Shown here: positions 38,530-61,894 of the stretch, piece after piece
How positions within the stretch are numbered: the first letter of the stretch is position 1
How the letters are laid out: the number at the start of each line of letters is the position of its first letter
Assembly: GCA_017411305.1 (NCBI GenBank)
Contig: JAFQQI010000077.1
Span: 1-64,000 of the forward strand
Length of the DNA stretch: 64,000 nucleotides
Source: Lachnospiraceae bacterium
GTDB taxonomy: Bacteria; Bacillota; Clostridia; Lachnospirales; Lachnospiraceae
Direction: 5' to 3'
Translations under genes and position numbers: made by a program
Notes under the pieces: generated by a model
Told to the model about the DNA's origin: nothing
What the model saw: only the letters and a program-made list of their open reading frames with translations
Database searches by the model: none

Positions 38530-38962
38530 TTATCTTCTTGTCACATAAGATTCCTTAATATGTTTGTACAAGCAATTTTCTTCTTGAACATACATATCAT
38601 AAGAAGGTTCTTCTGATTGTTCAAACGTACCATATTCGTCTACAACTTCTATCTTTCCGTATCTATCTGTTTCTCCTATCCGAAAAGCCACTTCCTCGTC
38701 ACGCAAATACGCTGGATGACCAATTACCGGCTTATGTACTGCATCTGATAAGGAAACAATACTTGTATATAAAAGAGTGTGTTTTTCATCTACTTTTATG
38801 TTGGCATGATAGTGCCCAAAAAGCCAATGCCTGTATGACACTTTACCTTTGATAGCCTCCAAATAATCCGTTAATACATCTGCTTCAAATGAGCTTCTAT
38901 ACCTTTCGTTCATCACCTTTTGTGTACCTGTCGAACAGCAATGGGTTATAATACCGGGGACG
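38530..38962 (-). pseudogene. 3' fragment of a metallophosphoesterase gene
   Basis: The frame reads SVPGIITHCCSTGTQ...HWLFGHYHANI...LLYTSIVSL and on to a stop at 38530. The ITHCxSTxxQ and FGHYH motifs are those of the C-terminal half of calcineurin-like phosphoesterases. The N-terminal half with the DxH and GNHD motifs is absent; upstream bases belong to another frame. A 128-residue frame starting at 38916 could still be translated, but it cannot be an active enzyme. Confidence 0.75.
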
Positions 38963-39149
38963 CTGCATCAATATGACCTGAAACACTCGGCAATTCGATA
39001 TCTGACATTATATCTCTTGCGAGATAATCCACTACCTCATCGTAGGAAAAGTCATCCATCCAGCCTGTTGTATTACCAGGATCTGTAACCATCTTCGTAA
39101 CATACTCTTTCCCTAAAGCTTCCTCAATTCCATCTTTAAATTTGCATTA
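38946..39149 (-). pseudogene. Fragment of an unidentified gene, no start codon
   Basis: An open frame of 67 codons (FKDGIEEALGKEYV...GWMDDFSYDEVVDYLARDI...) begins right after a stop codon with no plausible start, and ends at TAA 38946-38948. Amino-acid composition looks like a real acidic protein segment, but I cannot name the family. It joins the metallophosphoesterase fragment in a different frame, indicating a recombination or deletion junction near 38955. Confidence 0.55.
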
Positions 39150-39176
39150 CTGTATCTTTGTCATGAACCCGGAAAC

Positions 39177-39526
39177 ATCTATACGGGACAATTTGCAAAA
39201 AACTTAGCCAATTGGGATAAGAATCTAAAAAATGCTTTTTTTATCCTACTATTTATATTAAAAAAGTTTCCCGTATAGCTTTATGTAAACCATTCGTGGG
39301 ATAACAAACGTAAAACATTACAATTTATTCCAGATTTCCCTTTGTAATAAGAATAATATATCTTATAAAATTAATTTTTCAGCTAAAATATGGGATAAAT
39401 CTCTTAAAATTCTAAATCTTATCCCACTTTGCTCTTACATCTTAAATAATCCCTTCAAATAACAGTGATTTTTCTGGAATAAAATCCTAAATATCCCAAA
39501 TTTATCCCAATTCACATAAAACCAAG
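39177..39526 (+). repeat. 350-nt multi-site element, copy A
   Basis: Four inverted pairs of a heptamer: GGGATAA at 39214, 39298, 39392 and (GGAATAA) 39476, each followed 26-27 nt later by TTATCC(C)/TTATTCC at 39241, 39325, 39419 and 39502. Pair-to-pair distances are 84, 94 and 84 bp. The whole is quasi-palindromic about 39361 (pair 1 mirrors pair 4, pair 2 mirrors pair 3). An extra 10-bp inverted repeat, CTATACGGGA with TCCCGTATAG, lies at 39179-39188 and 39268-39277. It contains no ORF. Copy B, inverted, is at 61545-61894. Confidence 0.85.
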
Positions 39527-39617
39527 TGCCCACTATAGAATTGCTTTTTCTTTTCCTCTCATTTCTTCCGAAAATCCTTTTTTCAACTATCGTATATATT
39601 AGGAGGCTTCAGACACT
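39527..39617. other. Short spacer between element A and the tRNA terminator
   Basis: About 90 bp, T-rich, no gene or repeat that I can support. Confidence 0.4.
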
Positions 39618-39650
39618 AAAAAACCTCAACGACTTAATTCGTTGAGGTTT
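39618..39650 (-). terminator. Terminator of tRNA-Gln
   Basis: AAACCTCAACG and CGTTGAGGTTT pair perfectly with a 9-nt loop; TTTTTT follows on the minus strand. It starts 6 nt after the tRNA. Confidence 0.92.
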
Positions 39651-39655
39651 CTAAG

Positions 39656-39727
39656 CAGGGCTACAAGGATTCGAACCTTGAGATGACGGAGTCAGAGTCC
39701 GTTGCCTTACCGTTTGGCGATAGCCCT
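39656..39727 (-). tRNA. tRNA-Gln (anticodon CUG)
   Basis: Cloverleaf read on the minus strand: acceptor AGGGCTA/TAGCCCT, D arm GCC..GGC, anticodon stem ACGGA/TCCGT with loop CTCTGAC (anticodon CUG, reads CAG), T arm CAAGG TTCGAAT CCTTG, discriminator G. CCA is not encoded. It is a single tRNA gene with its own promoter and terminator. Confidence 0.92.
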
Positions 39728-61475: not shown

Positions 61476-61544
61476 AATAGTAATGTGAATCTTTAATCTT
61501 TAATTTTGTCGTAATGTGAATTTTTTGGAGTATTCAATGCTTGA
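61476..61544. other. AT-rich spacer with a direct repeat
   Basis: TAATGTGAA(T) occurs at 61481 and 61512, 31 bp apart, between the XRE promoter and element B. No gene is seen. Confidence 0.45.
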
Positions 61545-61894
61545 TTCTGTATGAATTAGGATATATTTAAGATTTTTTAGATTTTTATCCTGGAAAAAAT
61601 GCAGTTTTTTAATAAAATCACTTGATACGTAAGAACAAAGTAGGATAAGATTTTGTATTTTGAGAATTTTATCCTATATTTTAACTGAAAAATTGATTTT
61701 ATAAGATATATTCCTCTTGTTCCATAGAAAAATCTAGGATAAATTATCGCATTTTTATGTTTTTATCGCACAAGTAGTTTACATAAAATATTTGAGGTGC
61801 TTTTTTTATTATGAAATGTAGGATAAAAGACAAGCTTTCTAAATTCTTATCCAATTGGTCGAAAAGATTGTTTTGCAAATTAATTCGTATAGAT
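61545..61894 (-). repeat. 350-nt multi-site element, copy B (inverted)
   Basis: The reverse complement aligns with copy A throughout. + strand half-sites: AGGATA(T) 61558 / TTATCCT 61585; AGGATAA 61642 / TTATCCT 61669; AGGATAA 61736 / TTATCGC 61763; AGGATAA 61820 / TTATCCA 61847. All four pairs are 27 bp start to start, with pair distances 84, 94 and 84, exactly as in copy A. The best-conserved block is 61685-61712, 28 nt with one difference from 39355-39382. No ORF. Confidence 0.85.

Follow-up and report, generated by a model that had tools for sequence, protein, structure and literature searches.

Arrays of helically phased inverted repeats in a Lachnospiraceae genome, probably the landing platform of an uncharacterised nuclease-like protein family

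The ends of Tn7-type transposons are arrays of TnsB sites, and their TnsA protein is a PD-(D/E)XK nuclease. Plasmid iterons and parS/parC centromere arrays consist of multiple phased sites next to the gene for the protein that binds them, with motifs that diverge between groups, and TTATCC is part of the DnaA box. REPtrons (RAYT/TnpA-REP) are described as a chromosomal gene beside short inverted repeats that are also dispersed elsewhere and are specific to sub-families (PMC2817692, PMC8266576, PMC3116915), with more than 100 REPs per genome (PMC2817692).

Here, we analysed a 350-base stretch, copy A, in a window of 64,000 nucleotides (the whole stretch of DNA under analysis). It is one of several scattered, helically phased arrays, which are probably landing platforms for an uncharacterised nuclease-like protein family, with an array sequence specific to each protein version. 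Among the described systems, the element appears to work most like a REPtron, since here, too, palindromic repeats cognate to the protein lie next to its gene as well as elsewhere in the genome, but it fails on the enzyme that defines REPtrons: theirs is an HUH tyrosine transposase, whereas the present one is PD-(D/E)XK-like, and no Y1 transposase family occurred among the Pfam matches of 18 members with E-values up to 0.1. Furthermore, the units are inverted half-sites in duplex-phased arrays, and there are fewer sites per genome than the number given for REPs (PMC2817692). With Tn7, the element shares a PD-(D/E)XK-like protein and arrays of (here putative) protein sites; however, the arrays are inverted pairs, usually on one gene side, and no TnsB- or TnsC-like gene was recognised by reading the ORF lists around five of the arrays introduced below (B–F). 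Like iterons and parS/parC, it has multiple phased sites with group-specific motifs beside the gene of a putative binding protein, but the contigs that carry the arrays are chromosomal, genes for partition or replication initiation were not recognised, and the protein carries a putative nuclease domain. PDC-S68, a PADLOC candidate, also has a C-terminal nuclease domain, but its models are about 1200 aa long, whereas here the N-terminal half is peculiar to the family and an array is present. A CRISPR array was rejected: the units are inverted pairs, the spacers within one array of the Lachnospiraceae genome Tb.RUG.206 are 83% identical, and no cas gene was recognised by reading around array F. 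So was a DnaA box cluster or oriC (TTATCCACA boxes), as the half-sites, by reading, continue with letters other than ACA. The original prediction knew of no described element with this layout, and we found none in searches of open-access PubMed Central.

Arrays in the window and in the rest of the genome

All half-sites of copy A were re-found at the predicted positions (Table 1), with half-site distances of 27, 27, 27 and 26 and pair distances of 84, 94 and 84 bp as claimed. Six of the eight agree exactly with the consensus RGGATAA/TTATCCY and two, at 39325 (TTATTCC) and 39476 (GGAATAA), deviate by one mismatch each. The window contains a second array, copy B, with 74% identity to A in the opposite orientation. 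Copy A had been described as quasi-palindromic, and in agreement with this the reverse strand of copy B matches a profile of the related arrays A–D (E-value 7.5e-6); the orientation shared by these four corresponds to the minus strand at copy A.

Table 1. Positions of copies A and B and of their units in the window.
Feature	Half-sites	Positions	Strand	Half-site starts
Copy A, solo array, four inverted pairs (84/94/84)		39177..39526	-	
Unit 1 of A (exact)	GGGATAA-N20-TTATCCT	39214..39247		39214/39241
Unit 2 of A (one mismatch)	GGGATAA-N20-TTATTCC	39298..39331		39298/39325
Unit 3 of A (exact)	GGGATAA-N20-TTATCCC	39392..39425		39392/39419
Unit 4 of A (one mismatch, half-site distance 26)	GGAATAA-N19-TTATCCC	39476..39508		39476/39502
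Copy B, second solo array of the window (84/94/84, like A)		61540..61894	+	
Unit 1 of B	AGGATAT / TTATCCT	61558..61591		
Unit 2 of B (exact)	AGGATAA / TTATCCT	61642..61675		
Unit 3 of B	AGGATAA / TTATCGC	61736..61769		
Unit 4 of B	AGGATAA / TTATCCA	61820..61853		

Taken alone, the half-site shows just a mild enrichment in the window (32 matches vs. 22.35 expected; 4 of 100 shuffles reach 32) and, thus, the layout carries the signal. When chains were defined by units with at most one mismatch each and steps of 84 or 94 ± 1, the four-unit chains of the window comprised eight units in total, whose positions are those of A and B. Among 200 versions of the window shuffled by dinucleotide, no chain was ever longer than 1, with a mean of 0.16 units.

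Copy A is adjoined by the apparently incomplete minus-strand remains of a gene that reads as phosphoesterase-like (38530–39176), the 128-aa open frame of which has no Pfam match with E-values up to 1. On the other side, a tRNA-Gln gene on the minus strand and a terminator-like hairpin (39616–39727) stand just before the array. An inverted repeat, CTATACGGGACAATTT / AAAGTTTCCCGTATAG, flanks unit 1 (39179–39194, 39263–39278) but was not seen in the aligned copies; the inverted repeat CTATACGGGA of copy A was rejected for this reason.

The genome itself (2.89 Mb in 123 contigs, 82.6% complete, 3.66% contamination) holds six arrays, A–F, with the half-site spacing kept; given further copies and a stable spacing, neither ground on which the original prediction would have been refuted applies. 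A–D are related in sequence, whereas E and F share with them little beyond half-sites and spacing. The geometry is 84/94/84 in A, B and C, 83/83/84 in D, 128/84/84 in E, and 84/84/84 in F. E, with spacers unrelated to those of A–D, was first seen as a weak match (E-value 0.28); F was found by a pattern scan of the genome and was not reported by the A–D profile up to an E-value of 10 (150 of 2356 candidates scored). All six exact matches of RGGATAA-N20-TTATCCY in the genome and 12 of the 14 pairs with one mismatch are inside the six arrays. At two mismatches, the total of pairs is 90, vs. 32 in a reversed-pattern control; this excess goes beyond the share of the arrays and may reflect base composition or isolated sites. 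Two pairs 84 bp apart, with up to three mismatches, occur 11 times in this genome, in none of the 36 other genomes of the genus, and only twice across 391 further genomes of the order. Of these two places, one reads as DnaA-box-like (G205) and one as the inside of a gene. Weak profile matches in seven congeners (L022–L029; all eight scanned for pairs, three read) yielded no array, and likewise those in the genome itself (L018, L020, L021).

The nuclease-like family beside the arrays

The gene of an unclassified PD-(D/E)XK nuclease-like protein (C56) begins 16 bp away from array F. Arrays of other genomes were sought in a collection of 84,980 species genomes with a loose two-pair pattern, the pair distance being left free over 13 values; 64 of the 106 matches were at 84 or 85 bp, many of them from few genomes. 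By eye, 41 of the resulting 74 loci were kept as arrays and 33 were dropped as chance or unclear, including a coding tandem repeat (L074). The hosts are gut and rumen Lachnospiraceae (Tb.RUG.206, SIG328, SIG331, RGIG8627), Butyrivibrio proteoclasticus, Treponema and other Spirochaetales, and Fibrobacter. On a Marinifilaceae contig (L125, 701–1050), four near-identical 86-bp units of CGGATAA-N20-TTATCCG are possibly a simple tandem repeat, and the family gene is absent from the ORF cluster list of this locus. Viral contigs gave no match in the first array search, and four later matches look like chance by reading; no phage matched the array, and the single plasmid match (41 bases) is inside an rpoD gene.

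In a blastp clustering of 705 ORFs of at least 80 aa within about 5 kb of the 41 kept loci and the six arrays A–F, the top cluster is the family of the F-adjacent gene, at 9 of the 47 array loci, followed by a methyltransferase-like and an ATPase-like family at six loci each. By reading, methyltransferase-like genes lie beside Treponema-type arrays, in two cases across the array from the nuclease gene (L130, L131) and otherwise near solo arrays (L066, L090, L123); a relative is near copy B.

The family protein is about 265 aa long, and its C-terminus carries a putative nuclease domain of the PD-(D/E)XK type. Its conserved residues (RSKSE, PDF, EHxG) look like this fold, as judged from the sequence; E179, P213, D214 and E229 are nearly invariant in the A2 alignment, and the lysine of the third motif is away from its usual place. 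No NCBIfam match was found for three members, no credible Pfam match for 18 (best E-value 5.8e-4), and no credible relative of known structure for the family. A Holliday junction resolvase family, phrog_9019, matches with an E-value of 1.2e-4. The protein is under purifying selection, with dN/dS values of 0.05–0.13 in five pairs. With the alignment as query, family members were detected in 85 of the 392 genomes sampled from the order; with the F protein, 9 of the 37 genomes of the genus had them (the present genome included in both). Many genomes of the order hold at least six matches. Viral contigs contained no relative with two protein queries. Six plasmid records match in the nuclease domain only, five of them annotated as AAA ATPase or helicase. 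The phage collection yielded three records, one nearly full length: a relative with 34% identity in a 4.2-kb unannotated “Bacteriophage sp.” record from human stool (L179, MT839528.1). A congener without A-type arrays has a truncated relative (L145, G026:C16:76213-76572), which shows 66% identity to the F protein in its C-terminal part.

The linkage between family genes and arrays was assessed with genes found by protein similarity; 9 of the 51 family genes had first been found via arrays and were left out, and the upstream side of L171 was excluded because of Ns. An array of at least three units is upstream of 31 of the 41 genes and downstream of three. Scoring used only five shuffles per sequence; none of 97 such sets scored above 5.4, but all 31 upstream arrays did. 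The ten genes without an upstream array by this test are L148, L137, L146, L152, L162, L166, L168, L169, L139 and L145; one of the nine array-found genes, L098, also gave none. Inverted pairs were read by eye at L137, and L146 and L171 have their arrays downstream. With array-found genes included, an exact 7-mer test gave 24 of 50 upstream and 3 of 47 downstream, and the set of the spacing test described below has upstream arrays at 39 of 50 genes. The array often lies about 80–280 bp before the first in-frame start codon, a position that suggests self-regulation. Units flank the gene on both sides in L164 and L137. In L150 (881–2890), the nuclease gene has a copy of its array region on either side, the two being near-identical and in direct orientation; in L171 (213–2890, reverse strand), the arrays on its two sides appear to be inverted copies of one another. 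A solo array could arise when direct copies recombine. Among 26 arrays of G000, G003 and G022, six overlap an open frame of at least 90 aa, possibly spurious, so that some arrays may not be intergenic.

Half-sites differ between sub-families (e.g., ACGGATA, AAGCGGA, AGGGTAT, CGGGGCA, TGACTAA, TACGGTT, TGTACCT) and follow the protein: motif and protein similarity correlate over 39 arrays with a Mantel r of 0.396, reached in 0 of 2000 permutations (L143 and L174 left out, L171 and L137 added by hand). Protein pairs with more than 60% identity (n = 18) share on average 6.5 of 7 letters, pairs with 50–60% identity (n = 27) share 4.0, and the background is about 3.5. Against a strict rule, TACGGAT is common to distant proteins (33–36% identical). 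Mantel and Rayleigh values (the latter given below) are descriptive, with the relatedness between families ignored.

Solo arrays follow the gene as well. G003 and G022, which have an AGGGTAT-type nuclease, contain 47 and 46 AGGGTAT matches vs. 16 and 13 in controls, whereas G011 and G026, in which only other family members were found, contain 11 and 13, none exact, vs. 13 and 20. Several members with different motifs can share one genome. In the present one, the motif of a second nuclease, AAGCGGA-N18-TCCGCTT, has 43 matches with up to two mismatches (control: 1), located in a gene-linked array of five units and in solo arrays of nine, six and five units with a unit spacing of 52–53 bp. A third family gene (L148, G000:C39:133803) has only a short tandem repeat upstream and no clear inverted-pair array. 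SIG328 carries A-like solo arrays (L091, L092, L101) together with a nuclease (L121; 129-aa part) that is 54% identical to the F protein and adjoined by GGATAA-type units at 84/95/83. The C56 protein, encoded beside F, is the most likely partner of A–F.

In three congeneric genomes, among them the present one, the end of a gene read as ComEC-like is immediately followed by a family gene with its array (L136, L137, L144; first ~1150 bases), the motif being different in each. A defence-linked nuclease, whose activity would be held, aimed or licensed by the arrays, e.g., in chromosomal self-recognition against incoming DNA, could explain this neighbourhood of DNA uptake, the presence of several members with different motifs in one genome, and the matches of the C-terminal half to PDC-S68 (17 of 18 members, best E-value 3e-31) and of the C-terminal domain to HEAT_CxxC_PDDEXK of PADLOC (11 of 18, best E-value 4.4e-7). 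However, only the end of the PDC-S68 proteins is matched, which may mean just a shared catalytic fold, the ComEC neighbours, all of a single genus, may reflect inherited synteny, and the ORFs around F are, by reading alone, unlike a defence island. We consider a role in defence improbable.

Helical phasing and conservation of the arrays

Array sizes range mostly from 3 to 13 units, with 16 in one case. Across sub-families with different half-sites, unit spacings cluster at 49–54, 61–65, 72–75, 82–85, 92–96 and 106–108 bp, i.e., at 5–10 helical turns. Over 52 spacing classes, the Rayleigh R is 0.804 with a peak at 10.5 bp and a phase of 0.09 bp, compared to a best R over all periods of 0.496 in 300 random spacing sets; with protein-found loci only, R is 0.789 over 43 spacing classes and best at 10.45. 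The 52-class test omitted five loci near others (L143, L131, L116, L114, L112) and made use of three downstream arrays; the unit frame may have been misread in L155 (d = 47) and L174 (d = 52), which leaves their period unaffected. The proposal that the pairs of copy A sit on one helix face as a nucleoprotein assembly site is strongly supported by these data, since spacings across different motifs, 84 and 94 included, fall on multiples of 10.5 bp. The functions suggested for such a site in the original prediction, namely recombination, partition, replication or a transposon end, were neither borne out nor contradicted.

Alternatively, the original prediction had offered an array of small hairpins, and such a row might work as RNA, e.g., as a guide or scaffold transcribed upstream of the nuclease. 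Indeed, every unit is an inverted repeat, and R/Y changes of the outer half-sites pair up by reading in two units of A–D (one such pair, columns 40/73, is counted in RNAalifold). Yet, while 6 of 53 pairs predicted by RNAalifold for the four copies changed on both sides, the covariation term is 0 for these four sequences; in Rfam, only a tRNA in the window reaches the gathering score. Moreover, the 10.5-bp phasing found across families is a property of duplex DNA and disfavours hairpins. This idea, thus, gained little support, and we regard function as RNA as very unlikely.

In Tb.RUG.206, the half-sites of fifteen arrays are 95% identical, compared to 44% elsewhere (25% for shuffled letters). 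Outside the half-sites, 46 of the 105 array pairs are less than 40% identical and a few exceed 90%; that these arrays often share only their half-sites argues against recent copying. Between the four AAGCGGA arrays of the present genome, half-sites are 89–99% and the rest 18–51% identical, and for a solo array that is orthologous in three Treponema-type genomes, identity is 98% in half-sites, 89% in the rest of the array and 81% in the flanks. Since half-sites are conserved above spacers and flanks, they and their spacing look constrained.

This constraint would suit a host regulatory or chromosome-organising network, in which a domesticated DNA-binding factor acts at non-mobile solo arrays as operator or anchoring sites and its nuclease fold is perhaps used for DNA maintenance. 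Besides half-sites that are kept while spacers diverged, the orthologous Treponema-type array, purifying selection on the protein, and two G022 solo arrays that are orthologous to G003 arrays speak for such a network (for a third one, L216, none of 17 G003 stretches provided a counterpart). Nevertheless, we judge it rather unlikely. The family is patchy and multi-copy with switching motifs, it keeps its catalytic motif residues in at least 90% of 18 aligned members, and the orientation of arrays to genes is inconsistent: 22 of the 26 arrays of G000, G003 and G022, a count that covers gene-linked arrays, have both neighbours, which in the output of a crude ORF caller are 15 times tandem, four times divergent and three times convergent.

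Spacer sequence is common to copies A–D and three copies of SIG328, the flanks of which mostly fail to align; four G003 arrays (about 104/62) also have spacers in common, with 68–80% identity via two G022 orthologues. Shared spacers in these groups, in the case of A–D and SIG328 amid mostly unalignable flanks, show past copying. The same pattern of A–D and SIG328 would be left by an ordinary dead MITE-like repeat with a layout merely inherited from one ancestor. This is hardly credible, because E, F and the arrays of other genomes keep half-sites and spacing despite unrelated spacers, and the middle spacer of D is shorter by 11 bp, near one helical turn. Many arrays look old; no empty site was seen and no target duplication was recognised by eye.

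Proposed mode of action and significance

We consider it fairly probable that A and B belong, as solo arrays, to a two-part element composed of a nuclease-like protein and helically phased binding arrays. From gene linkage, motif matching and conservation, we infer that the protein binds its array, presumably as one dimer per inverted pair. As the units are 5–10 full turns apart, the dimers would face one side and could join into one nucleoprotein complex. At a gene-linked array, this complex would lie in the promoter region and control the gene (autoregulation), while at solo arrays the protein would act in trans; A and B would be such trans sites of the F-adjacent protein in their own genome. 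Array sequence was copied to other sites in the past; the nuclease may have driven this copying, which we judge less likely than not. It is possible, if doubtful, that this is a class of self-propagating elements, in which one PD-(D/E)XK protein would read a phased array as one assembly, cut DNA and seed arrays, with specificity and dispersed half-sites changing together.

The findings point to a widespread, unnamed pairing, found in bacteria of gut and rumen, between a nuclease-like protein and a phased DNA platform of its own. Its quantised spacing makes a sharp physical prediction and, with dozens of natural protein–motif pairs, a specificity code could be read. The pairing also raises the question of how a protein and its scattered half-sites change together.
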